A DNA stretch of 21,030 bases, taken from the IMG/VR virus record IMGVR_UViG_3300021961_000763, positions 1 through 21,030 of that record. One strand, given 5' to 3'. Below, in pieces: positions 1-19,182 of this stretch (positions are counted from its first letter, which is position 1; every line of letters starts with the position of its first letter). The position numbers and the translations under genes were made by a program. A model generated the notes under the pieces. The model ran no database searches and was not told where the DNA came from. It saw nothing but the letters and a program-made list of their open reading frames with translations. Source of the DNA: a virus.

Positions 1-3000
1 GAGGTACCAGAAATAGCTTCTACTAAAGAATTAAAAACGCTAGTAGCTGTATTAACATTTAGAGAGTTTAAAGAATTATTTAAAGCGTCATCAATGCCGT
101 CTACAAGAGTTGTAGCACCTGTTAAAGCGTTAGAGAAGTCATAACTATTTAGTTTAGCATTAAGCTGAGTTTTAACTGCTTCAAGCTTATCTGTAGCCTC
201 AGTAAGTTTAGTTTGTACCTCGTAATCTCCTAGAGTGGAGTTTAAGGTATTTTGTATATTTGCAATATCTGCAGCTGCTTCCTCTAAATTAGTAGTAAAA
301 GACACACCTGCAAGACTATTATTTAAAGTAGTATCGATGCTGGCAATAGCTGCTTGAGCCTCTCCAGTTTTTACAGAGAAATCTACTGAATCTAGAGCAC
401 TATTTACCGAGTCTACAGAAGCATTTATAGCCCCTATCGCAATAGCAGTACTAGTTTCTAATACTACACCACCTAAGGTATCTTTTACTTCTTGAATCGA
501 AGATTCAACATTTTCAATCATTGTCTCGGCTGAGATACTTAAATCAACATTAGAAATAGTACTGTCTAATAGGTTGACGGCAGCATTAATAACTTTAACC
601 ATATTATCTGCCGCAGCACTTAAATCTACTTCTTCAATAGTCGAGTTTAGAGTATTTACAGCTAAAGTAATTGCATCTACTGCCTCAGTGGCTGCAACAC
701 CTAAATCTACTGATTTAAGAGTGCTATCAATAGTATTAATAGAAGCAGTTATATTATTAGCAGTACCGGCAGCTGAAATAGAAAGAGATACGTCATTTAG
801 AGTACTGTTAATTACGTTTACCGCGGAGACAATTTGGTCTTTAGCAGTTTGCGCGGAGACCTCAAAATTAATCTCATTCAATAGAGAATCAATAACGTCT
901 ACAGACGTATAGAGCGAAGTTAACGCATCAGACGCTTCGAATAAGACAGATAAACTGCCGCCCTCCTCAAGTACTGCATTTATGTTACCAATTCCTTCAG
1001 CGTAGAGATTTAAGTTTTCAGGTGCCGTATCAGATAGATTCTGACCAACAGTAGCAAGACCAACATATCCAGCAGTTAATCTATCTAAGTCAGTGCCTAC
1101 AGCAGCCACAAAAGTTCCAAAACTAGTTGTAGCTGTTTGAATACTGACATCTAAAATATTACCTGCTTCAGTTAAAGTAGTGAGAGCTCCAGTAATTAAA
1201 CCAAGATTGACATTAAAGTTATCTAACGGCCCACCTGGAGCTGTTAAGATGTCAAAACCATCTGTTTTTAGGGTAGAGAGTAGTGATTCTCTAAATTGAG
1301 AAAATATACCACCTTCTCCATAGAATTGAGATAGCCCGTCCACGTCTAGATACTTTACTAAGTCTTCGTTAAAGTTTCTAAAATTATCAGTAAGCCCAAC
1401 ACTAATCTCTTCTAGACCGTCAAAAACAGTTTCTACTGGTGTGAAGAACTCCTCAACCTGAGCCGCTAGAGCCTGTAACTGAGTAAAGGCTGCTGACGCA
1501 TTTGCAATGGCTTCTTCAATTTTTGCTTCCCGAGCAGCTTCTTCTAAGGTAGCAAAAATAATTTCCGCATTACCGGCTGCTGCCTGAATAAATGCACTAC
1601 GAAGAGCTGCACCAGACTCTCCGCCGATAGCCTCTAAATTGACTGTAAGAGCTTCTAAATCTTTATTATAGGAAGAGAGAGCTTCGCGTACCTTATTTAC
1701 AACAGACTCTTCATCAGTACGAACCTGATTAAGATTAAAATTAGACTCAGCTAATAGCTCAGTGATATCTTGTAAATCATTTTGCGCTTGATTAAAGGTT
1801 ACAACCGCATCTTGAGTTTTTTTGATAATATCACTCTCTTTACGACGAGTATCTATTAAACTACCTGTTAAAGACGCAATAGATGCTTCTACAAACGCTA
1901 AATCTTCTATAGCCTGTGTTCTATCTCCCAACAGTTGTTCATATTCAGCTTCAACGTCTACAACGGAACTTAATTCACGCTTTAATGCGCTTTGCTTAGA
2001 GGTTAAATCACTAAGCTGTAAGAACCCGCTAAAGTCAAGATTTTCAGCAGAAACAAGACTTGCAATTTCAGCTTCTACAGCAGAAATCTCCTGACGCAGT
2101 AGAGAGGAAGATTTACCGCTAAGTTTATTAGTCTTTTCAAACTCTTTTACCGCTTTAGCTGCAACCTCGAAGGCATCTTTAGCTGTATCACGTAAATCAT
2201 ATAGTTCATTACCAGACTCGGCTACCGTAGCTAGCGTATCGTCGTAGATGCCTAATATCTCAGAAGTTTGGTCTGAGATATTACTAGTAAGAGAGATAAT
2301 CTCTGAGCCTAGATCTTTAATAGTGCTAAGTACCGCATCTTTAGATTGATTAAAGGCATCTGAAATTTGACGTACTGTATCTTCATATGCAACTACTAAA
2401 TCATAGACGATATCAATAGTTTGGATGGTGGCATCTTGTAAGACATCTAGAGACTGTGCAAACTCCATAATCTTGTCTTCGTTATCACCAAACTCGTTAT
2501 TAAGAGTGTCAATCGCATCTTTAAAGTTATCTACGATATTCTCACCACGAGTAATACTCTGTAGGTACGAGTTTATACTTTGAGCCGCATTACCGAACTT
2601 AGCATCATTCATAGCTGTCATAAGGTCTTGGAGTGGTACAGCACCTATCCCAACTGTTGCAATAATACTAGAGTTGATACGCTCTAGCCCAGCAGCAAAG
2701 TTACGAGTCGCTTTAGCAAACTGTTGTAGGGCTTTAGTGCGGTCTTGCTCTCTTAAGATTGCGAGACGTTGTTCTGCCGCAGTTTCTGCAATAGCACTAC
2801 CATATCCATCAGCGGCAATAACAGCCTTAAGTTGTTCTTTAGTTAGGGTAAGAATGCTTTCCTGAATTGCATATTCGTTAACCTTAATAGCGTCTTGTAA
2901 GGCTTGGTTAGCCTCTGCGATTCGTCCTGGTTCTATTTCTGGAACAGCATTAAGCTCTGTTATAATGCCTTTCCAATCCTTAACAGCTTGAGTACCGCCC

Positions 3001-6000
3001 TCAATCACGTTTTTAAGATTTTTTAACTCTGGTCCAAGCTCAAAGGCTTCTACTGCATCACGAAGTGCTTCCGCAGAGGCAGAGATAAGATTACCGATTT
3101 CTGCATTTATACCTGCTCGAATAGCTGCAGCAGTTTCTCCGGCAGTCATACCTAGTTCTGTAAACACAGAACTCATAGCTCGTACACGCGCAACAACGTT
3201 GCGTACGGCGATAGCTCCAGCATTTAACTCTTTTGACACGTCTTGTAGGTTTTCGAACATACCTCTAGAAGATTCAATTACACCAACGCTTGCTAGAGCA
3301 TACTGTTTAAATGAGGTTACTAATCTATCAGTCTGGTCACTGCTTTCTCCAAAGTACTTCACAGTTTCTTCACGAAGCTGATTATAATATGCAGACACAT
3401 TAGAGGCGTTAGCAGCAGCTACTCTATCTATTTCTGCATAGATGTTAGCAATGTTTGGAACATTTGCAGTAATTTTTGCCAGAGTAGCACTAAACTCTTG
3501 AGCAAACTCTAAACCTGCTAAGAATCGTTCTTGAGTCTTTTGATTAATATCTTGGATTTCTGCAAACACATCAAGAGCTTGCTGTAAATCCGCTGCATTA
3601 GGTGTGAGAGCATCTACAACAAGACTACGGAAAGTTACTGCACCCGCATCATTACGTTGAATAGTAACTCCTTGAAAAAACTGTTTTACCAGTTCATCAG
3701 AAACTGCTTGAGCTTCCTTACCAACATTTTCTAGAGCCTTGAATCCACTCTTAAATGCTAATCCAACTTTTTCAAAATTACCTTTATAGAACCTAACTTG
3801 CACGTCAATCTCGTCTGCAAGTCTAATACCGGCAGATTTTAAGCCTGTAATCAGATTACCGAATACCTGTGTAGGAATATCTTCAATAGCTGCAACGTTC
3901 TCGGCACTTAAATCACGACTTACTGTTTCTAAGCCTTGATACCCTTCACCGGTTATTTTACCTTTGACATCTGCTGTAGGCTTTGGGCGCTTACCGAATA
4001 AAGCACCTATAATTAAGGCCCCAATTGCAGCAAAAATTAATGGAGTAGCAAATGCGGCTATAGCAGTACTACCTACCGTAGTAGAAATAGCAGCAGAAAC
4101 TTTGGCGACAAAAGCAGTACCCTTAAAAAGAGTAGCAACACCAAACCCGATAGCACCTCCTATAGTACTAGCTAAAGAAGTGTCTCCAGTTAGTTTACCA
4201 ATAAAGTTACCAATAAAAGCTCCCTGTATCGCAGATAAAGCGACAGAAGCAAAGGTAGACATACTAGCCGCTGGAACAGCAGCTGTAGTAGTTCCCGCAG
4301 TAGTACCGGCTACTGTTCCAGCAGCGCTCCCTACCGCGGATGCAGATAGGGTTTCTGCAGTACTAGCTAGTTGAGTAGAAGACTTAGCTAAACTAGCACC
4401 GGCATTCTGTAGCCCCACAGAAGACTTAGCAAACTCTCCAAATGAGCGTTTTAAGTCATTTATACCTGTAACCTCAAAGAATACATTTTTAAGCGTATCC
4501 ATCGAAAATAGATTCTGAATACCTCCAGAACCTCCTAGAGAGGCTAAGCTTGCAATCGTTTTAACAAATGCTTTTAGTTTACCGTTGGCAATATCAGTAA
4601 TAGCGCCAAGCACTTTTTGAATTTCAGCTAGCTCTTCTTCTTTTGCAATTCGTTCTGTAGTTACTTTTTGTAGCGACGCCTGAAGAACAGCTTGAGACTG
4701 GGTTAAGGATGCAAGAGACTGCTCTGTGGCAGCTCTCTGCCCAGAGGCGCGACTTAGTTCTAACGTCGCTTGTTGTTGCTCTTGAAGTTGTTTTAAATAG
4801 TTTGTTCCAGCAGAGCGAATATCTTGAGCGTTTGCACCAACTAGTGAGTCGAAATAAGACTGTTGACTTGCTAGCAGTGATTCCGTGGCCGAAGTTACTT
4901 TTTCACGAAGTGAAATTTCTTTTTCTAATGCTTCAGAGTACTTATTTTGAACATCAGTTAAATCTTGTGTTTGAGATTCTAAAATATTTTTGAGAAGTGC
5001 TTCTTCTTGTAACAGACGATTTACTCCAGCTTGTTTAGAGCTAGTTACTACGGAAGAAATAGTTTTTGTAATTTCTTTTACTAGGTTGAGAATTAAATCA
5101 GCTTCTTTACGAGCAAGCTCTTCTCTAGCCTTTAAAATTTCTGCGTTAGCTTGAGCCTCTCTTACCTGTAATTCGTTTAAAGTTTTTTGATACTCGGCAA
5201 TTTTTTCTTGCCCACCTGCTTTTTCTGCTTCTGCCTGTGCTTGAATTGTTTGACGTCTAATGTCATTTAGAGCATCTAGTTCTGTACGCTGTTTTTGTAA
5301 ATCGCTTATCTGAGCACTAATATTACCAGACTGTATTTCAAAAGCCTGTTCAATGCCTTTAAACACGGTACCTTCAGGTCCGTATAAATTAATCATAGCA
5401 GATTCTAACTTAGTTATTTCGGCAAGAGCTTCTGTAAATACTTTTGTGTCTGGCTTATAATCGACTTTTTTTACCAGAGAAGCATCAACTCCTTGAGCTG
5501 TTAGAGCTTGTCTTATTACATCGCTGTAACCCTTTAGAAATTCATTATTTAAGGTTTGAAGATTAGTTAAGTAACTATTATCAGAACGAATTTTAGCTAT
5601 TTGAGCCTCTAACGCAGCTTTTTGAGTATTAGCTTCTGCACGTTGAATAGTTTTTTGAGTCTCTAAAATTTCACGCTGACGACGTAATTCATCTGCACTC
5701 GCATCAAGCTTAGCTTTTTCTAATTTAGCTTGTTCATCAAATATTTGTAGTTCTAGCTCTAATTGTCTTTCAATAGCTGCTATCGAAGCTCCAGAAGATT
5801 TTAAGTTTTGTTCTGCAATTTGCTTTTCAACAGCAATAAGCTCTAACTCACGAGAGTAGTTAACCTCTGCCTCTGCTTTTTGTAGTTGAAAGAGTTCTTT
5901 TTCTGCTCTAAATACTTCAGCTAGCGCAGCGATACCAAATAAGTCATCTTCTGCAAAAGCCTCTCTAGTAATCTTAGCTTCTTCTACTCTAGCCTGAGCT

Positions 6001-8969
6001 CGAGTTTGTGCAATGCCAAGCTCTATTCTAGATAGTTCTCTTGCAGTTTGTAGTTGACTTTGTTGTATTTCGAGCTGTTGCTTAGCTGCACTGACTCCAC
6101 CTTTAGAGGCTTTTGCTTGTTCTAAGGCTTGTTGTGCTTGTAGCTTAGCGATATTAGCTGAGAGCCTATTTTGAGAAAAAGTACTCTCTAAAGACGCTCT
6201 TTGAGCCAGCGCTTGCTGGTTTTGTAATCTATTACTGAGTTGTGCTATTGCATTTTGATTTCTGAGTTCTTGAGTTTGTTTACGTAATTCCTCTGTCAAA
6301 TTAGCTGCTGCAATAGTTTGGTCAACAAATCTTCCAATTGCAGCTTGTAGCGTTTTATTGTAGAGTTCTGCTTCTGCATTGATTGTAGCTCTTAGTTTAC
6401 GCTCGTCATCAAAGTTTAGCTGTCTTTCTTTTACTAGTGCATTAATAGCCTGCTCATTACCAATAAGTTTAGCAGACTCTGCGGTTCTAAGTAATGTAGT
6501 CTCAATAAGCTCATTCTGATTAGCTATTTGTTCTTGTTGATTAGTAACGATCTTACCTTCTATATCAATTATACCCTGAAAGGGGGCAGTATCAATTAAA
6601 CCAATCTCTTTGCTAAAAGTAGAAGTGATACCTTTATATGTTTTTTCTAAAGCAAGTAGAGATGATTCAATCTCTTTAAATACTCTAATCTCGTCTAATA
6701 TACTGTTTATGGAGGTGCTAAGTTGTATATTAGCACTTTTGATTTTTAGAATTTCTTCATCGCTCATCTGAGCTAAAGCAGTAGAGTCTCTTAGTAGAGC
6801 ATTTTGTTTTACAAAAGCCTCATTAGCTATTTGAAGTTGGCTCTCTAAACCGCCAATACTAGAACCAAGTTGTTGTGAGTTAATAGAACCGGCTTTAATA
6901 GCCTCATTTAAATCGTTAATAGTACTAACAGATAAAATACCGGCTTCTACTAATCTTCTCTGTTCCGCATTTAAACCAGCCAAAGAAAAGTCTTCTCCTA
7001 GCTTCTGAACCTGTTGACCAAACACAGCAAATCGTTCAGAACTTTTTTGAATAACTCCTAGAGTGGTATCAGTAATACTTGTCGCAACTTTTTCTGCAGA
7101 TAGTCCAGTCTGTGCAGCTAGCTCTCCTATAACTAAATAGTACTCTGCTCCATACTTTTTATACGCATCCGCTATAGCAGTAACTAGAGTTAACTGTTGA
7201 CGTAACCCATCTAGTTGTGCAGGGTCAGTAGTTTCTGCAATAGTTGCATTTAATTCAGCTATTTTTTCATTTGCAGCACCTAAAAGGTCTATTTCAGCGG
7301 CTACTTGATCAGCTACTGTTCCAAAATTTTCAATAAATCCTGAAGCTCTTAGAGCATTTGACTCTGCCGTATCTTCTATCTCTTTTCGTAGTGTTTTTAA
7401 GCTATCAGGTAATTTTTCTAAATCTTCTGCAGTGGCACCAAGAGCCTTTAAAGACTCTGTGAGTTTTGCACTACCTCCAGCAGCTGCTGCTGCCGCACCC
7501 GTAAAACCTGTTTCTAAGTTTTTTGAGGCTTCAAACAATTTAGAAATTTTTTCGGTTAACCAACCAATAGCGTCTATTCCAAAAACTTGTAATGCAAGTT
7601 GCGCTGCAGTAACAACTAGCCCAATAACACCTAACGTCTTAGAAAGTAGGCTAAAGGCGATTGTTAAACCTGAAGCTGCTCCACGTAAAAGATTAGCAGT
7701 ACCGATAAAAGCTCTGGATTTTACATCAGCTTTTTCCAAGGCTAAGGAGTTAGCTGAGATAGCTGCAGTCAAAGCCTGATATGATTGACTTCCAGTTTTT
7801 TTAGTAGCTTCTAAAAACTTCTGCTGTTCTTTATAGGCAAGATTAACTTTATTAAGTTGAGAGATAGTTTGGATAGCTCCACCTCTCTGTAAGTCTAGTG
7901 CTTCTTTAAATCTTTTAGCTTGTTCAGCATCCTGACCCTTAAGAGGAGTTGCTCTAATGATGTACCCCCCTTTTTCTCTTTTTTGCCCAACAGTTTCTCT
8001 TAAGTTCGATAAAGCAGAAACATCAAATTTATTTTTATCTGCTAAGAACTCAGAAAGCTTAGTTAAATCTTTTAAAGAATCATTAACAAAACCTCCTACA
8101 ACTTGAGAGCCTTTACTAAATACAAGAGTTAATATCCCACCAAATAGTAATAAAGTATTACCAAAATCATTCTTAAAAAAGTTTACAATAGGTAATAAGA
8201 CATTAACTAATAACTTAGCTAAGGCTATACCTAACTCTTCTACTTGTACTCTAAGTTGCTCTAGTGACTTTTGAGTAGAAGGAGCTGTAGTGTCAATAGC
8301 ACCAAATTTACGCAAACCCTCTTCAATAGCTGCGTTAGCAAAAGCCTGACGACGTTGGAACTCATTTAGAGAGTTTGCACTTACTCCAAGTTGTCTAGCG
8401 TATTTTTGCACCGCCGGTTCTATACGGGTAAAGATACCAAGTTCGTCTAAGAGTTCTGGTTCTAACTTAGCAACACCTCGAGTAATACGCTGTAAGGAGT
8501 CTGTAAAGTCTCTACCAAGTGCGCGAGAAGCTTTTAAAGCTACCGTAGTAAATCCTTCAATCTGACGAGTATTAAAACCCGCACTAAGAGCAATGTTAGC
8601 ATTTTGAGCGGCCTCAGTAAGAGTAACTTGACCTTCTGTAATATCTTTAATAGATTTAAGAATACGTGGACCACTCTGTCCGATTTCTGCCGCTAGAGTT
8701 TTTGTACCTTGAATAATAGCATCTGATTGTGCTGCTTTAGATAATGCAGAGAAAGCCTGTTGTAGAGCAAAGATAGTTGCAGCTGCACCAGCATATGCAG
8801 CAACTAAGCCGCCTAATCCTTGAGACTGGGCTGCAAAAGCACGACCCGCGCTGGCCGACGATTGGCCAAGGCGGGTCTGAGATCTGTTAATTCGATCTGT
8901 ATCTTTGTTGACTTTATCGGCACCAGTACTAGTAAATTGTGTCTGGATTATATTCTTAATTACAGCCAA
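1..8969 (-). CDS. Tape measure protein (partial, C-terminus off left edge)
   Basis: One uninterrupted minus-strand frame runs from a TTG at 8967-8969 to the left edge, giving 2989 codons without a stop. Tape measure proteins thread the tail lumen, set tail length and are ejected with the DNA. The N-terminus reads MAVIKNIIQTQF and leads into an Ala/Gly-rich segment. Hydrophobic stretches lie near residues 54-69, 247-284, 431-464 and 1560-1660; the last is a long Gly/Ala/Ile-rich block. Residues about 840-1470 are Ala/Gln/Glu/Lys-rich and look like coiled coil. Eleven 27-residue repeats occupy about residues 2692-2988. The position after the G/GT chaperones is classic. A stop at 8979-8981 closes this frame upstream, so the start must lie at or below 8978. 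TTG overlaps nothing and has a weak GAGAAG about 5 nt ahead. I saw no peptidase or lysozyme motif in the visible part. Family assignment is secure; the exact start is less so. Confidence 0.93.
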   Translation of the reverse strand, partial: MAVIKNIIQTQFTSTGADKVNKDTDRINRSQTRLGQSSASAGRAFAAQSQGLGGLVAAYAGAAATIFALQQAFSALSKAAQSDAIIQGTKTLAAEIGQSGPRILKSIKDITEGQVTLTEAAQNANIALSAGFNTRQIEGFTTVALKASRALGRDFTDSLQRITRGVAKLEPELLDELGIFTRIEPAVQKYARQLGVSANSLNEFQRRQAFANAAIEEGLRKFGAIDTTAPSTQKSLEQLRVQVEELGIALAKLLVNVLLPIVNFFKNDFGNTLLLFGGILTLVFSKGSQVVGGFVNDSLKDLTKLSEFLADKNKFDVSALSNLRETVGQKREKGGYIIRATPLKGQDAEQAKRFKEALDLQRGGAIQTISQLNKVNLAYKEQQKFLEATKKTGSQSYQALTAAISANSLALEKADVKSRAFIGTANLLRGAASGLTIAFSLLSKTLGVIGLVVTAAQLALQVFGIDAIGWLTEKISKLFEASKNLETGFTGAAAAAAGGSAKLTESLKALGATAEDLEKLPDSLKTLRKEIEDTAESNALRASGFIENFGTVADQVAAEIDLLGAANEKIAELNATIAETTDPAQLDGLRQQLTLVTAIADAYKKYGAEYYLVIGELAAQTGLSAEKVATSITDTTLGVIQKSSERFAVFGQQVQKLGEDFSLAGLNAEQRRLVEAGILSVSTINDLNEAIKAGSINSQQLGSSIGGLESQLQIANEAFVKQNALLRDSTALAQMSDEEILKIKSANIQLSTSINSILDEIRVFKEIESSLLALEKTYKGITSTFSKEIGLIDTAPFQGIIDIEGKIVTNQQEQIANQNELIETTLLRTAESAKLIGNEQAINALVKERQLNFDDERKLRATINAEAELYNKTLQAAIGRFVDQTIAAANLTEELRKQTQELRNQNAIAQLSNRLQNQQALAQRASLESTFSQNRLSANIAKLQAQQALEQAKASKGGVSAAKQQLEIQQSQLQTARELSRIELGIAQTRAQARVEEAKITREAFAEDDLFGIAALAEVFRAEKELFQLQKAEAEVNYSRELELIAVEKQIAEQNLKSSGASIAAIERQLELELQIFDEQAKLEKAKLDASADELRRQREILETQKTIQRAEANTQKAALEAQIAKIRSDNSYLTNLQTLNNEFLKGYSDVIRQALTAQGVDASLVKKVDYKPDTKVFTEALAEITKLESAMINLYGPEGTVFKGIEQAFEIQSGNISAQISDLQKQRTELDALNDIRRQTIQAQAEAEKAGGQEKIAEYQKTLNELQVREAQANAEILKAREELARKEADLILNLVKEITKTISSVVTSSKQAGVNRLLQEEALLKNILESQTQDLTDVQNKYSEALEKEISLREKVTSATESLLASQQSYFDSLVGANAQDIRSAGTNYLKQLQEQQQATLELSRASGQRAATEQSLASLTQSQAVLQASLQKVTTERIAKEEELAEIQKVLGAITDIANGKLKAFVKTIASLASLGGSGGIQNLFSMDTLKNVFFEVTGINDLKRSFGEFAKSSVGLQNAGASLAKSSTQLASTAETLSASAVGSAAGTVAGTTAGTTTAAVPAASMSTFASVALSAIQGAFIGNFIGKLTGDTSLASTIGGAIGFGVATLFKGTAFVAKVSAAISTTVGSTAIAAFATPLIFAAIGALIIGALFGKRPKPTADVKGKITGEGYQGLETVSRDLSAENVAAIEDIPTQVFGNLITGLKSAGIRLADEIDVQVRFYKGNFEKVGLAFKSGFKALENVGKEAQAVSDELVKQFFQGVTIQRNDAGAVTFRSLVVDALTPNAADLQQALDVFAEIQDINQKTQERFLAGLEFAQEFSATLAKITANVPNIANIYAEIDRVAAANASNVSAYYNQLREETVKYFGESSDQTDRLVTSFKQYALASVGVIESSRGMFENLQDVSKELNAGAIAVRNVVARVRAMSSVFTELGMTAGETAAAIRAGINAEIGNLISASAEALRDAVEAFELGPELKNLKNVIEGGTQAVKDWKGIITELNAVPEIEPGRIAEANQALQDAIKVNEYAIQESILTLTKEQLKAVIAADGYGSAIAETAAEQRLAILREQDRTKALQQFAKATRNFAAGLERINSSIIATVGIGAVPLQDLMTAMNDAKFGNAAQSINSYLQSITRGENIVDNFKDAIDTLNNEFGDNEDKIMEFAQSLDVLQDATIQTIDIVYDLVVAYEDTVRQISDAFNQSKDAVLSTIKDLGSEIISLTSNISDQTSEILGIYDDTLATVAESGNELYDLRDTAKDAFEVAAKAVKEFEKTNKLSGKSSSLLRQEISAVEAEIASLVSAENLDFSGFLQLSDLTSKQSALKRELSSVVDVEAEYEQLLGDRTQAIEDLAFVEASIASLTGSLIDTRRKESDIIKKTQDAVVTFNQAQNDLQDITELLAESNFNLNQVRTDEESVVNKVREALSSYNKDLEALTVNLEAIGGESGAALRSAFIQAAAGNAEIIFATLEEAAREAKIEEAIANASAAFTQLQALAAQVEEFFTPVETVFDGLEEISVGLTDNFRNFNEDLVKYLDVDGLSQFYGEGGIFSQFRESLLSTLKTDGFDILTAPGGPLDNFNVNLGLITGALTTLTEAGNILDVSIQTATTSFGTFVAAVGTDLDRLTAGYVGLATVGQNLSDTAPENLNLYAEGIGNINAVLEEGGSLSVLFEASDALTSLYTSVDVIDSLLNEINFEVSAQTAKDQIVSAVNVINSTLNDVSLSISAAGTANNITASINTIDSTLKSVDLGVAATEAVDAITLAVNTLNSTIEEVDLSAAADNMVKVINAAVNLLDSTISNVDLSISAETMIENVESSIQEVKDTLGGVVLETSTAIAIGAINASVDSVNSALDSVDFSVKTGEAQAAIASIDTTLNNSLAGVSFTTNLEEAAADIANIQNTLNSTLGDYEVQTKLTEATDKLEAVKTQLNAKLNSYDFSNALTGATTLVDGIDDALNNSLNSLNVNTATSVFNSLVEAISGT
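6..896 (-). repeat. Eleven tandem 27-residue (81-nt) repeats inside the tape measure gene
   Basis: Translated on the minus strand, this stretch falls into eleven units spaced exactly 27 codons apart. Each starts with a hydrophobic residue, then N/D-S-T-L/I, a V at position 9, D/S at 10 and L/F at 11. Examples of unit starts are VINSTLNDVSL, TIDSTLKSVDL, TLNSTIEEVDL, LLDSTISNVDL, SVNSALDSVDF and TLNSTLGDYEV. The second half is Ala/Glu/Ile-rich and ends with a motif like INAAVN. The units are diverged at DNA level but keep phase with no insertion or deletion. A weaker related unit precedes them, and the array reaches the window edge, so the true copy number is probably higher. Confidence 0.85.
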
Positions 8970-11206: not shown

Positions 11207-11656
11207 TTAGGATTTAAAAATTTCAAAGCGAGTACTAAGAAATATTTCTGCCATACCATATGGGTGCAGCAAGCCTGAATCTGTTAGTACAGTTAATATA
11301 TTAACATCAAAAAGCTGTAGATCAGGTGTACCTTTAAAATTATATAAAATGTGCTCTACATCCAAAACCAAATTGTTAATTTGGTCAACTGGGTCGTCAC
11401 TATTTACATAACATCTTAAGGTAGATTCAATCTTTGCCTCAGTATTATTGTTAGTATTAAATTTTCTTATTTCTCGCCCTGAGGTAATATAGATTGAGGG
11501 AAAATCATTAATTTCGTCAAGGTATTTTAAACCTCGATATATGTTATCGCGTAAATCAGTTTTAAAATTATACGCGGTATCGTAAGGTGAAGCTCTACCA
11601 TCAATTTGTTTTAGAGAGCTAACTATTAAATCATTGATTCGAGTTCTATTAGACAT
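11207..11656 (-). CDS. Tail terminator / tail completion protein (lambda gpU-like)
   Basis: A 149-residue protein between the neck protein and the major tail protein. It opens with an amphipathic helix (RTRINDLIVSSLKQIDG), then FPSIYITSGREIRKF, a strand carrying RCYVNSDDPVD, a helix (LDVEHILYNF) and the ending TDSGLLHPYGMAEIFLSTRFEIF. This order of helix, FP-containing strand, conserved TDSG and final strand matches tail terminator proteins. They cap the last tube ring and form the head-binding face. It is preceded by a 57-nt gap that holds a sigma70-type promoter. Its own ribosome binding site is weak (AAGAAG). The family call rests on pattern and position. Confidence 0.75.
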   Translation of the reverse strand: MSNRTRINDLIVSSLKQIDGRASPYDTAYNFKTDLRDNIYRGLKYLDEINDFPSIYITSGREIRKFNTNNNTEAKIESTLRCYVNSDDPVDQINNLVLDVEHILYNFKGTPDLQLFDVNILTVLTDSGLLHPYGMAEIFLSTRFEIFKS

Positions 11657-11713: not shown

Positions 11714-13075
11714 TTAAAGTTCTAATCGTCTAGTTTGAGCTTGCTGTTTAAATTTAGTTTGTATAACTGACCTAATGGAGTCCTCAACTAAATTAGTTAC
11801 CTGATATCCTGAGCGTTCTAACTTTTGGTAGTAGGGCTCATAAAAGTAGTCTACGGTTCGTTGTCTAAAATTAAAAAACGCTCTAATACTATTTCTAAAA
11901 GCTCCTGTACGTTCATAAATTTTAGGTGGTCTAGGCTTACCAGCCCCCCGTCTCATACGTTGTTTTACTTTAGCCTTCACTAATACAGTCACGTCAATAG
12001 CAGATTCTTTTTCAATTCTTTCTTCTTTTTCTATTTCGGGGGGTTTAAAAGCCTTAGAAGCGATTTCTACTCTTCCAGCATAGGCTAACACACTACCAGA
12101 AGAATATATAATGTCAAATGAAAAGCTTTGATTATTAAATTGTTTTTCTATTGTAGCGAATAGGCTTTGAAGTTTTGATAATGCTTGTGGGTCTGTAGAT
12201 AGTTCTGCTAATCTCTTTTGAACAATCTCTTCAAAAGTAGAATTGAAATTAGTATAGGCTTGTTTAAAATCAGAGCGCTTAGCGACTTCTGCAAGTGCTT
12301 CATTAAGTATACTTTTTGGATAGGCAAATTTTATATCTAACGCTTGACCGTCTCGGGAAAGACTAATACGTGCTGTTCTAAGAATAAACTCTTTTTTGAA
12401 CTGAAGGGTTGTAATTGCTGATTGTTTAGCATTAATAGTTAGAGGAATAGTTAAGGTCAGAGCCTTAGTAGTTAAGTTTTTAGATATAGCTTGTAATACT
12501 TTACGGAGGCTTAAATTTTTTTGCTTACTAGGCGCAGATAAATGTTCTTTTAACAACCCTCGTTTGTCTTTATAGTATCTAAAAAATCTTTCAGAGTCTT
12601 CAATAGTTTGAACCTCTTCTTGAATAGCTCCAGTATCTGGATTAACAGAGTATCCAACAGTAAGTTCTTTAGCGCCATCTGCACCAATTCTTATAGGACT
12701 ACCTAATTCAATAGCTCTTTCTCTTCGAGGGGTTATTTCTCTGGAGTTATTTATAATATACTTTAACAAAGAGGCTTTAACTTCTTGAGTTTCAATACCG
12801 CCAGTCACGGTATTAACTTTAATAAGGTCAACTTTCAAGCCTCGACCAGCTACTTCTTGAATTTTACGAGTACCTGTAGCAGATGCAATACCTGCTTCTA
12901 CTATAGCGTATGATTTAGTAGCTAAAGAACGTATTGCAGTAGAAAGTTCTCTTTTCCCTTCGCTCTCTAATGCGATAGCAGCACTAGATAATCTAGAACT
13001 AAAAATACTAGCTAATGCAAAAGGTCTATTGTTTATAATTGCGAAGTTAGATACAGAAAAACTAGGAGAAGCCAT
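11714..13075 (-). CDS. Neck / head-closure-type protein with gp10-like C-terminus
   Basis: A 453-residue protein lying between the head-tail adaptor and the tail terminator. The C-terminal ~70 residues (from about 386) read YERTGAFRNSIRAF and then VDYFYEPYYQKLERSGY and a final basic helix. This TG-x-x-R-x-S start, Y-rich turn and E-x-SGY motif resembles HK97 gp10-type neck or tail-completion proteins, which normally have only about 100-150 residues in all. The first ~370 residues are thus a large extension: helical and Ser/Ala-rich at 18-70, charged at 110-175, beta-rich at 205-250, helical at 255-315, then a Lys/Glu linker near 345-358. I do not recognise the extension. Its ATG overlaps the adaptor stop by one base (TAATG), indicating coupled translation. 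Function as a neck component is inferred from context. Confidence 0.6.
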   Translation of the reverse strand: MASPSFSVSNFAIINNRPFALASIFSSRLSSAAIALESEGKRELSTAIRSLATKSYAIVEAGIASATGTRKIQEVAGRGLKVDLIKVNTVTGGIETQEVKASLLKYIINNSREITPRRERAIELGSPIRIGADGAKELTVGYSVNPDTGAIQEEVQTIEDSERFFRYYKDKRGLLKEHLSAPSKQKNLSLRKVLQAISKNLTTKALTLTIPLTINAKQSAITTLQFKKEFILRTARISLSRDGQALDIKFAYPKSILNEALAEVAKRSDFKQAYTNFNSTFEEIVQKRLAELSTDPQALSKLQSLFATIEKQFNNQSFSFDIIYSSGSVLAYAGRVEIASKAFKPPEIEKEERIEKESAIDVTVLVKAKVKQRMRRGAGKPRPPKIYERTGAFRNSIRAFFNFRQRTVDYFYEPYYQKLERSGYQVTNLVEDSIRSVIQTKFKQQAQTRRLEL

Positions 13076-14349
13076 TATTCAACTAACCTATAAAGATTAA
13101 GGATACGACGTACTTGCGGTGGAAACTCATCGACTCCAAGTTTATAAGAATTAACTGTCTCTCCTTGCATAGTAACTCTGTCACTTCCGGACCGACCTTT
13201 ATAGATAACTTTAATCATCTCTAAGACAGCTAGTTTTAAATCTGCAGGAATTGTAGTATATCCGCCATTATAGTATACTTTAATACCATTAGGATAATTA
13301 TAAAACTTAAGTGGTCGGAAGAAACTAAGTTTTGGTGTTCCACCACCATCGCCAGTATTAAAGCTAATTTCTCCTGTAGTTGGGTAGAATGTATACTCAT
13401 TAACCCGTCTGGACACATCAGGCATTTGAGTAGAGTTGTCTGAGCCATCAAAGCGCATTAACAGTTTTGTATTTTCATTCTGACGAGTTGGATATGTAGG
13501 AGCAGTAAAGTTGGCGGTATATTCTGCGATATGACTAATCTTTAAGTCGTCTAAGTATCCAGTTAAATAGTTAGTTGAAATACCTCTTCCAATATAGAGA
13601 CCTGTATTAAAATTTGGAATAGAGTTTGCGCTGGCAAGAGTTGCAACGCTAGTTCCATTTCGATAGAGTTTAATATTAGAAGAATCCCTAACTAAAGCTA
13701 AGTGATAGAACTGATTGGCGCTATAACCTGTATTAGCGCCTTGGCGCGCAACAATGTTTTCAACTCCATCAACAACAGTTACAAACTGAAAGCCTCCGGA
13801 ATCAAAATCTAAAGATAGCTCCCAGTAGTTATTAGCGCTTCCGCTACTGAGAAGTGTTTGAGTATTAGCACTAACATTATCAAATCTAGCCTGTACCTCA
13901 ATAGTAAAGGGGTCTACACCTAAATCCCAGTCAGAGTTAGAATCAGTTAAGAGATAGCTAGCTCCATCAAAACGAGCACTAGAGCGATTAAATTTTTTCA
14001 CACGAGTTTTAAGAAGCGGATTCCCAAAGTTAGAAATAGTGTGAGATTGCCCTTCAATTATGATAGGTTCACCGTTTGTACCAGGTCCACCTAAGATTTG
14101 AAAATCTTTACCATCATAGTGAGATACTTCATCTACCCTATTTATGGGCGGGTACGAGACAAAAACTGAAGAGATACCGCCATCAAAGAATTCTACGTAG
14201 TTGTTAGAGGCAAAAGTACGACCACAATATGATTCTACTAGTGAAGTGACTTGAGTGGCGATATTAGCTAATCGCCCATCTTCATCTGTATTAATTGTTT
14301 TAATAACTAAAAAGTCTTTAATCTCAGCTAGATTTACTAAGTTGGCCAT
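13075..14349 (-). CDS. Head-tail adaptor (gp6-like connector) with inserted LamG-like domain
   Basis: A 424-residue protein whose two ends look like a phage adaptor of the HK97 gp6/gp15 type. Residues 1-80 form the helical start (LAEIKDFLVI, TSLVESYCGRTF, then YPPINRVDEV). Residues about 312-424 carry YTFYPTTGEISF, GIKVYYNGGYTTIPADLK and a last helix pair. Between them, residues ~117-305 form a concanavalin/LamG_3-like jelly roll: SARFDGASYLL, PFTIEVQARFD, a YHLALVRD strand, KLYRNGTSVA, LYIGRG, GYLDDLKISHIAEYTANFTAP. The frame is continuous. Adaptors bind the portal and recruit the neck protein. The insert would project outward and may bind glycans. The start has a TGGAGGA site 5 nt upstream and overlaps the previous gene by 26 nt. 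The domain calls are my reading of motifs, not a search. Confidence 0.82.
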   Translation of the reverse strand: MANLVNLAEIKDFLVIKTINTDEDGRLANIATQVTSLVESYCGRTFASNNYVEFFDGGISSVFVSYPPINRVDEVSHYDGKDFQILGGPGTNGEPIIIEGQSHTISNFGNPLLKTRVKKFNRSSARFDGASYLLTDSNSDWDLGVDPFTIEVQARFDNVSANTQTLLSSGSANNYWELSLDFDSGGFQFVTVVDGVENIVARQGANTGYSANQFYHLALVRDSSNIKLYRNGTSVATLASANSIPNFNTGLYIGRGISTNYLTGYLDDLKISHIAEYTANFTAPTYPTRQNENTKLLMRFDGSDNSTQMPDVSRRVNEYTFYPTTGEISFNTGDGGGTPKLSFFRPLKFYNYPNGIKVYYNGGYTTIPADLKLAVLEMIKVIYKGRSGSDRVTMQGETVNSYKLGVDEFPPQVRRILNLYRLVE

Positions 14350-14617
14350 CTATATCCTCCAGAATTTTGGAAATTGAATATGCGGTTAGCCGCACAGGAG
14401 AAGAGTTTTTTACCCCTCCAGGAATTGTTTTCCAAGACTCTAATTGTGTTTGCAATTCTGATTGCGCTTTGTGCTGTTCAACATCTTCTAGCGTAAAGTG
14501 ATGATAGGCCCCATTAAAAGAATTACCCTGAGCTAAGTATTCTCTAAATTCGTTATCAAACGTAAGATACTGTTTTCTAGCAGCTTCGAGAATCATACTT
14601 TTAGTTAAAAAATCCAT
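14324..14617 (-). CDS. Small hypothetical protein of the connector region
   Basis: A 97-residue, soluble, mostly helical protein (MDFLTKSMILEAARKQYLTF) with a Gln/Glu-rich middle (VEQHKAQSELQTQLESWKTI) and a C-terminal helix (AYSISKILEDIDGQ). I do not recognise a family. It has an AAAGGG ribosome binding site and overlaps both neighbours: its start lies 17 nt inside the glycosyltransferase-like gene, and its end lies 26 nt inside the adaptor gene. This tight packing suggests coupled translation and a role in head or connector assembly, such as a minor head protein or a partner of the adaptor. The role is inferred from place only. Confidence 0.7.
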   Translation of the reverse strand: MDFLTKSMILEAARKQYLTFDNEFREYLAQGNSFNGAYHHFTLEDVEQHKAQSELQTQLESWKTIPGGVKNSSPVRLTAYSISKILEDIDGQLSKSS

Positions 14618-15296
14618 CTGTTATCCCTTTACTATTCCAAAAACTTAAATCATATGGACTTTCACCTTCTTCTATTTTTGGACCTGCATTAAAAGATTCT
14701 GAAAGGTCACAAATAAGTCCTGGTAATCCTTCTAAGTAGAATTTAGAGTGCGGCTTAAATGTTTTTTCTGTCAGTTTTTCTAGCCGTAACCAGAAAAAAG
14801 TTCCTGCATAGCTAAATCGCTCACCAATATTTTCAGGTAAGTAGTCTTTTCTATCAATTAAGCAAGAACCGTAAACACTATATTTTTTATTCGTAAAAGG
14901 TAGTTTAGCGTGTTGGGTTAAGGTGTAATGAAGTAGTACATCTGTCCAGATAGAAGAGGCTTTACCATTGTCAGATTCTGGATGATAGGTAATGCCTTTA
15001 GAATGGCAATAGTAGAGCATACCACTTTGATGTTCTTTAAGTAGTTTAGGAAGACTCTGCTCAAAAAAATGACCCGTTTCTCGAAGAGGGTTATTATCTA
15101 CGGTAATAACTTCATAGCCTAATTTATTTAGGATTGAAGAGACTCTTTCATAGATATCAAGCTCAGTAGTCACTCTAGTAACAGTAGCTATCTTTTTCCC
15201 GGTAAAGATTGCGTTATACTTTACAAGTGCTTTTATGACTTTAAGCACTCCAGGATGGTCTAAGCAGTGAATATGACAAATGCAATGTTTTAACAT
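14601..15296 (-). CDS. Glycosyltransferase-like protein
   Basis: A 231-residue protein that resembles a family of bacterial and phage glycosyltransferase-like proteins. The pattern I recognise is an opening strand CHIHCLDHPG, a YYCHSKGI motif (residues 96-102) equivalent to the Y-x-H-(S/T)-K-G signature, W117 after it, a FSYAGTFFWLRLEKL segment (161-175) equivalent to the SGNFWW-like motif, and a YLEGLPGL stretch near 187. No classic DxD is evident. Family members are thought to transfer sugars, but the substrate here is unknown. The gene sits directly after the capsid gene and its hairpin, and just before the connector genes, with an AGAGG site 4 nt before the ATG. A role in modifying virion proteins is possible; host-surface change is an alternative. 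Confidence 0.55.
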   Translation of the reverse strand: MLKHCICHIHCLDHPGVLKVIKALVKYNAIFTGKKIATVTRVTTELDIYERVSSILNKLGYEVITVDNNPLRETGHFFEQSLPKLLKEHQSGMLYYCHSKGITYHPESDNGKASSIWTDVLLHYTLTQHAKLPFTNKKYSVYGSCLIDRKDYLPENIGERFSYAGTFFWLRLEKLTEKTFKPHSKFYLEGLPGLICDLSESFNAGPKIEEGESPYDLSFWNSKGITDGFFN

Positions 15297-17928: not shown

Positions 17929-19182
17929 TTACTCTCGTAGGACGCTGTCAGCAGGTATTTCGTCTACACTTTCATTTGTGGGACGACCACCTACCTCTGG
18001 ATTTACAGCACTTCCTGTTATATTTTGGGGAAGTCTAATTAAATTAGTTTCTGGAGTGTCTAGTGTTTTAAATCCAAGCTTTGCACGAGCCTCATCTGGA
18101 GTGATAATACCCGAGTTTACTAAACTAACATAATATTGACTTTGGGTTCTTAAATCAGGTTGAAGAGCTGTAATAACGGTTCTATCTGGCATAATGCGGA
18201 CAGAATTAAAATAGTGAGCAAGAGCACTAGCAAACATCAAAACTATTGGCAGAACTGTGTGTTCGTAGAAGAGTACTTGGTTTGCTGCGATATTAGCGTT
18301 ATTACCACTTTTCATTAAGACATAAGGCACGCCCATTGCCTTAGCCATATCTTGTTCTAGTCTATCTACACTGCTTTCAAAATCTAAACTCTGAAAGTTA
18401 ATGTCACTAAACTTATCAATCTTTAGTCCACCATCTAAAATAGCCGGACTACGAGCGCCTTCAAAAATAGTAGCATAAGAATTGCGCCAACTCTGAAGTA
18501 ATCGTTCTTTAATTTTAGTGTTTAGCACGGAATCGGTAGTCAGCACCACACCGGGCACGGCATTATTCTTAAAAAACTGACGCTGAAACTTTAGCAGTGC
18601 GTTGTAGATGTTGATAATGTTTGAGAGACTCTTGATACGAGATTTTCCACGAAAGATGCTCTCATCGTTATCTTCTTTAATGTGAATAATTTCGTCAGCT
18701 CGAAACTCGATAACCTGCTTCTTTGATTGGCGCACCGAACTATAACTAGAAGAGCCGCCACCATGAATCAAGAAGATATACCCACGCACAAAAGTCTTTG
18801 GGTCGGTTACAATCTCTACGTCATTCGCCGGAAGTACATAAAGATGGTTTCCATCATAGTAGAAAAAGGCATTACCATCTAACAGTAGGTCGAAGTAGGC
18901 ACGTCGTAGTAGTCGAACTCTATCCTCAAACGGGTTTGGTCTATCATTAAGTAGCTTGTTAAGCTTTTTAGCAGGGCCCTCGCCTGAGATTGCAAAAGGA
19001 ATCTCAACGCAGGCACTAACAATCATATCAACCGCACGATGAATAACTTCTATCTGGTCATAGGCAGCTCTAAAATCAACGTTAGAGTCTGGCTGAACAA
19101 AAGGTTCGCGGCTATGAATATACGATTGAACTGGGTTAAGTTTCAGTCTGTCCGCTAGCCAACCTATCGGTCCCCTCGCCAT
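17929..19182 (-). CDS. Portal protein (HK97 type)
   Basis: A 417-residue protein of usual size for HK97-family portals (Phage_portal), the dodecameric ring at one capsid vertex through which DNA passes and on which terminase and adaptor dock. Landmarks in order are YDQIEVIHRAVDMIVSACVEIPF near 41-63, LLLDGNAFFYY near 98-108, a wing-type strand region, the VPGVVLTTD segment, the stem/crown region with QDMAKAMGVPYVLM, and the late VNSGIITPDEARAKLGF motif that is typical of this family. The start is supported by GGAGAG 8-9 nt upstream, although this makes a 47-nt overlap with the HNH gene. Only 13 nt separate its stop from the protease-capsid gene, so the two are likely co-translated. Confidence 0.93.
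   Translation of the reverse strand: MARGPIGWLADRLKLNPVQSYIHSREPFVQPDSNVDFRAAYDQIEVIHRAVDMIVSACVEIPFAISGEGPAKKLNKLLNDRPNPFEDRVRLLRRAYFDLLLDGNAFFYYDGNHLYVLPANDVEIVTDPKTFVRGYIFLIHGGGSSSYSSVRQSKKQVIEFRADEIIHIKEDNDESIFRGKSRIKSLSNIINIYNALLKFQRQFFKNNAVPGVVLTTDSVLNTKIKERLLQSWRNSYATIFEGARSPAILDGGLKIDKFSDINFQSLDFESSVDRLEQDMAKAMGVPYVLMKSGNNANIAANQVLFYEHTVLPIVLMFASALAHYFNSVRIMPDRTVITALQPDLRTQSQYYVSLVNSGIITPDEARAKLGFKTLDTPETNLIRLPQNITGSAVNPEVGGRPTNESVDEIPADSVLRE

Follow-up and report, generated by a model that had tools for sequence, protein, structure and literature searches.

In the lactococcal phages of the 936 and P335 groups, the neck passage structure (NPS) bears carbohydrate-binding modules (CBMs), one of which has been found to bind host cells, and this structure is a separate fibre-forming protein that lies outside the adaptor, uses several CBM folds and is dispensable in TP901-1 (PMC6669499). 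CBMs are also inserted in essential structural proteins of the 936 phages, namely evolved Dit and extended major tail proteins, at the tail tip or tube (PMC6669499). Among ring adaptors, tail tubular protein A of KP32 (T7 gp11-type) has an extra beta element that has been proposed to be lectin-like, although this element is a sheet of 43 residues, weakly called by Phyre2, and not a whole jelly roll (PMC5440376). The adaptors of T5 (p144) and DT57C (gp120), of the families PF24163 and PHROG_442, are 170-aa proteins in which two helices, a small beta barrel and two further helices follow one another, and they have no inserted domain.

Here we describe a locus that can be set beside these systems. 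The window, a 21,030-nucleotide stretch of an uncultured virus genome (IMG/VR record IMGVR_UViG_3300021961_000763), encodes a 424-residue protein that is, with very high confidence, a T5-type head-tail adaptor (head completion protein, HCP) carrying an in-frame, complete LamG_3 jelly roll. It has the gene position and the order of secondary structure elements of T5 p144 and DT57C gp120 and matches them in its C-terminal sequence, but differs in having ~229 additional residues in the loop of the attachment domain. As in the NPS, carbohydrate-binding-type domains would be displayed round the neck; however, the lectin-like domain sits within the adaptor ORF itself, and it is not a separate fibre- or ring-forming neck passage structure or collar protein. 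The insertion of such a domain into an essential structural protein recalls evolved Dit and the extended major tail proteins, though here the recipient is the adaptor, and KP32 tail tubular protein A belongs to another adaptor family. The original prediction had taken lectin-like domains to be usual on fibres, tubes and capsids; the fusion to an adaptor is indeed new, but CBMs at the neck were already known, in the 936 group as the separate NPS protein (PMC6669499).

The genes of the window run from terminase through an HNH protein, portal, a fused protease-capsid protein, two small genes, the adaptor, a 453-residue protein, tail terminator and major tail protein to the tape measure, and thus share the T5-like order of portal, protease, MCP, adaptor, Neck1, terminator and major tail (Table 1). 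The 453-residue ORF overlaps the stop codon of the adaptor by one base. A T5-type head-neck order together with homologous portal, adaptor, terminator and major tail proteins, by which membership of the Demerecviridae can be judged, is present. Given the fusion of protease with capsid, and a portal that shares no more than ~36% identity with its best matches, the window phage likely belongs to a separate family-level lineage relative to the Demerecviridae. The fused protease-capsid ORF, which has a long middle region, is conserved in relatives, whereas T5-like isolates have separate genes. A tape-measure-like ORF (3-8969, minus strand) continues beyond the window, and its length of 2989 residues or more implies that the tail is very long. 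Between the capsid and adaptor genes lies a conserved 231-residue protein (14601-15296, minus strand) with the motifs HSKG and GTFFW, found only in the window's subclade, for which there was nothing above the Pfam cut-off and no support from PDB profiles. We considered it as a glycosyltransferase partner and dropped the idea, since such a role lacks profile or PDB support and the protein is absent from deeper members of the clade.

Table 1. Features of the adaptor gene and its neighbours in the window (residues refer to the 424-residue protein)
Feature	Position	Strand	Evidence
Tail terminator (T5 p142-like)	11207..11656	-	Phage_tail_terminator_7, E 1.9e-16
p143-position (Neck1 / HK97 gp10-like) protein, 453 aa	11714..13075	-	Position; C-terminal similarity to T5-like 'tail completion or Neck1' gene
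Adaptor C-part, residues 317-424	13075..13401	-	PF24163 at 359-422; PDB profile matches; hhalign
Insert, residues ~88-316	13402..14088	-	Absent from 170-207 aa sister-lineage adaptors
LamG jelly roll, residues ~101-315, 23.8 kDa	13405..14049	-	Laminin_G_3; AF2 pLDDT ~90; Foldseek
Pfam LamG core, residues 129-273	13531-13965	-	
Adaptor N-part, residues 1-87	14089..14349	-	Phage_connect_1 at 7-49; AF2 secondary structure; alignment with insert-less adaptors
Prohead protease fused to major capsid protein, 847 aa	15372..17915	-	Peptidase_S78 and Phage_capsid
Portal protein, expected partner of the adaptor ring	17929..19182	-	Phage_portal, E 1.2e-52; ~36% identity to Demerecviridae portals (best matches)

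The adaptor ORF (13075-14349, minus strand) starts with ATG, is uninterrupted by internal stops and encodes a 47 kDa protein. Its Laminin_G_3 match (E 1.1e-16; 61.8 bits against a cut-off of 27.6) covers positions 3-142 of the 151 in the profile, and it is flanked by matches to Phage_connect_1 (E 9e-6) and HCP (PF24163; E 1.2e-6), each above the curated Pfam cut-off, so that both flanks are adaptor-type, as had been proposed. In PHROGs the ORF is assigned to the head-tail adaptor phrog_442 (E 1.9e-21), and a profile of the family matches, in the adaptor C-part, the head completion proteins of DT57C (8hqo, E 4e-7) and T5 (9ilp, E 2e-6); compared with T5-like HCPs by hhalign, the C-part reaches a probability of 97%. 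The 270 columns of the PHROG_442 profile do not betray an insert in known members: complete orthologues lacking the insert cover columns 84-263, and the extra length is a long N-terminus only. Among 35 aligned representatives (the window protein and 34 relatives that are 32-90% identical to it), Laminin_G_3 and HCP were detected in all and Phage_connect_1 in 34, and this recurrence of all three parts excludes chance. The modest single adaptor matches of the window protein (E 1e-6 and 9e-6) might be taken to indicate a decoration or tail protein with adaptor-like ends, but both halves match, HCP recurs in every relative, the synteny agrees, capsid and terminator have no other adaptor-like gene between them, and orthologues without the insert occupy the same position; we regard that reading as scarcely tenable.

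An AlphaFold2 (AF2) monomer model computed from the 35 representatives (mean pLDDT 82, pTM 0.71) comprises an adaptor and a jelly roll, with pLDDT of ~83-95 in the LamG blocks and ~74-89 in most adaptor blocks, residues 334-351 being poor and weak spots lying near 381-410. When only nine close relatives were used the adaptor was not resolved (pLDDT <40). In the N-part, helices 7-14 and 21-42 form part of a helix bundle and are followed by strands 49-56, 61-63, 69-78 and 83-85 of the attachment barrel; the C-part contributes the last barrel strands (319-322, 327-330 and 355-362) and helices 369-390 and 411-420. The flanks are thus ordered helix-helix-barrel-helix-helix and fold jointly as a helix bundle and small barrel. 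Together with the Pfam, PHROG and PDB matches, this model bears out the idea of a LamG-like jelly roll inserted in frame between two halves that make one adaptor. Its borders needed revision: alignment with insert-less adaptors shows that the ~229 extra residues replace a short turn at about residues 76-84 on the scale of the 170-residue T5-like protein. The LamG domain had been placed at residues 117-305, which do map to 14001-13435, but this cuts short a domain that takes in strands 105-108, 112-114 and 294-298 and whose strands span 105-298; likewise, the adaptor halves drawn at 1-~95 and ~312-424 are both real, though the insert begins already at ~88 and the C-half only at ~317. Foldseek against the PDB returned mostly LamG-like structures, including the PAPP-A LamG, pentraxins and domain 4 of AbnA, at low global TM (~0.3), and we therefore read the individual analogues, toxin binding domains among them, only as 'jelly roll'. 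An independent BFVD model of an uncultured-virus protein (UniProt A0A218MK94, 446 aa) matched over its full length (TM 0.90/0.86, 38% identity).

Scans of IMG/VR with the whole protein, its C-half and portals, which retrieved certain contigs repeatedly, yielded 133 records of complete ORFs (418-453 aa), each with all three parts, and two further ORFs (373 and 392 aa) cut by the contig end. LamG is present in every clade relative whose contig reaches the adaptor gene. The portal-scan loci with no adaptor match have <3.5 kb after the portal, too short to reach the gene, and the few ORFs with only a C-half in a later scan are truncated by the contig end; one contig (G010) considered as a case of LamG loss ends ~2 kb past the portal, gives no adaptor match and was not counted as such. 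None of 50,697 named phage records covers 80% of the protein, and two scans of the contigs of GTDB species genomes found no relative. Among named phages, the closest LamG sequences (25-33% identity) come from T4-like cyanophages, where, unlike in the window, they form part of large multi-domain baseplate or structural proteins and not of adaptors. Two apparent precedents were set aside: the 'gp14 neck protein' of phage metaG-MbCM1, found as a LamG match in BFVD, has 2400 residues and a doubtful neck label, and Aphanizomenon phage CL131 has a stand-alone LamG in a different gene order. Within the literature collection searched, no paper joined LamG, phage, head-tail and neck. The phages with this adaptor are a widespread, uncultured, aquatic clade related to T5.

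Sister lineages, reached by a portal search that started from a Vibrio phage, allowed a comparison with adaptors lacking the insert, as the original prediction had suggested. At the same gene position they encode adaptors of 170-207 aa without LamG, which match the LamG family's own N- and C-half profiles (2e-15 and 6e-14 for the adaptor of L208). PF24163 spans the L208 protein unbroken (E 1e-20), and on insert-less orthologues of 185-207 aa it aligns with no break (3-183 to 2-168/169). A second insertion has taken place at the same attachment-domain loop: the 337-aa adaptors of L227 (7743-8756) and L229 (5926-6939), which lie outside the LamG clade in the portal tree, contain an unrelated, Cys-containing insert of ~150 residues to which no Pfam family could be assigned. 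In a portal tree of 59 rows, a single branch (SH-aLRT 100) with a long stem separates the 31 LamG carriers from the other rows. A single gain without any loss accounts for this pattern, subject to the reservation that long branches always call for.

The LamG domain evolves faster than its flanks, yet under purifying selection. Mean pairwise identity among relatives is 37% for LamG as against 49-52% for the flanks, and in most close pairs the dN of LamG exceeds that of the flanks, by up to ~10 times; its omega is mostly below 0.15 (mostly 0.03-0.15, with one pair at 0.35), values that are rough because many pairs approach saturation at synonymous sites. Adaptor and LamG distances correlate closely (Mantel r 0.85; 0 of 1000 shuffles), which indicates that LamG has been inherited with the adaptor and not swapped. 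A neutral passenger retained by chance is very improbable given this omega and the lack of any loss among the 31 tree members, even though insertions in exposed loops are often tolerated and L227 and L229 carry an unrelated insert in the same loop. L053 (4690-6033) and L055 (12287-13630) have near-identical adaptors (flank dN 0.02-0.04) and strongly diverged LamG domains (dN 0.34, omega 0.35), a contrast suggesting that the lectin has either recombined locally or changed fast. Conservation within LamG is highest at R116, S124, F148, R155, H216, G232, G264, D267 and T294, which look framework-like, and no conserved sugar site was recognised.

The 453-residue protein and the corresponding Neck1-position genes of L001-L196 share a conserved, T5 Neck1-like C-terminal region of ~110 residues, whereas their N-terminal ~300 residues fall into seven groups that BLAST does not join (the largest with 26, 23 and 20 members). 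These groups cut across adaptor relatedness: L102 and L118, for example, differ in group and have identical adaptor C-halves. The three largest groups have invariant polar residues in the order D...ExK (with a leading E in one), and two of them align there. This order is typical of PD-(D/E)XK nucleases; comparison of the N-terminal groups with PDB profiles gave no match, and on the motif we would guess at a nuclease. In L198, a second LamG occurs in a protein of ~540 residues encoded just after the tape measure (2716-4353, minus strand), possibly a Dit-like tail tip protein. G004 and G007 have ORFs of ~535 aa with a second LamG that are placed after the tape measure by position only, and G007 has five LamG matches in total.

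The T5 homologue is dodecameric, and its counterpart of the insert-bearing domain sits at the portal's outer face (PMC11313276, PMC10713586); in DT57C this region is domain II (DII, 44-111) (PMC10713586). As the insertion loop belongs to domain II, the insert starts on the outer side of the neck, and since twelve domains of ~24 kDa each are too big for the DNA channel, they would be placed outwards. By analogy with these structures, the LamG domains very probably form an outward-facing, 12-fold ring, or collar, around the neck. Of the 12- or 13-fold ring first envisaged, the outward 12-fold arrangement is a sound inference from the cryo-EM of T5 and DT57C, and 13 can be discarded.

What such a collar might do is less certain. 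We propose that a T5-type adaptor gained one LamG jelly roll in its attachment-domain loop and that the resulting collar would serve as an accessory adhesin, whose weak, multivalent binding of glycans on host envelopes or particles may make productive contact more likely ahead of tail-tip engagement. Glycan binding is suggested by fold and analogy, with no conserved binding site recognised; of the possible roles, that of an accessory neck adhesin is the likeliest, and we would put its chances at about even. On the sugar binding, adhesion to cells or mucus and organising of whiskers raised in the original prediction, which is supported in part, the evidence that bears is the fold and the insert's faster evolution. 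Such fast evolution would fit any exposed surface. The jelly rolls might instead pack on the portal, the capsid vertex or each other, bracing a three-protein neck that has no stopper ring and binding no sugar. Retention throughout the clade, purifying selection, co-inheritance with the adaptor and the conservation of residues 115-124 and 291-311 at the base of the insert would all agree with such bracing, and the Milano collar has been described as adding robustness (PMC10491603, as relayed in PMC11313276). Yet the LamG surface is far more variable than the flanks, unlike a commonly shared interface, and sister lineages manage without LamG, so we consider a structural ring rather unlikely. Collars of T4 and other phages hold fibres (PMC11313276), and the ring could by the same token be a docking platform for whiskers, fibres or a collar protein; this is improbable, because no fibritin- or whisker-like gene is seen in the window, the genes adjoining the adaptor (14601-15296 and 14324-14617) were not detected in the deeper members with LamG, and the conserved docking face to be expected is not seen. 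Taken as a whole, the explanation by a LamG-bearing T5-type adaptor, an outward collar and an accessory adhesin appears reasonably probable.

The domain, the ring protein and separate neck CBMs were known; what is new is a lectin-like domain fused into the adaptor ring and fixed across a broad uncultured clade. We tentatively suggest, while thinking it somewhat doubtful, that the attachment-domain loop of T5-type adaptors has repeatedly served as an insertion site for exposed domains, and that a large, uncultured lineage of aquatic phages fixed a lectin there as an integral, non-dispensable 12-fold glycan-binding collar affecting adsorption outside the tail tip. Such a site would suit display on virions. 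Earlier neck lectins are optional, separate fibres, whereas in this clade the adaptor ring, indispensable to T5-type phages, is the platform for display. If the LamG domain binds glycans, abundant uncultured phages of an entire lineage would have twelve fixed neck adhesins, pointing to modes of attachment beyond the tail tip.
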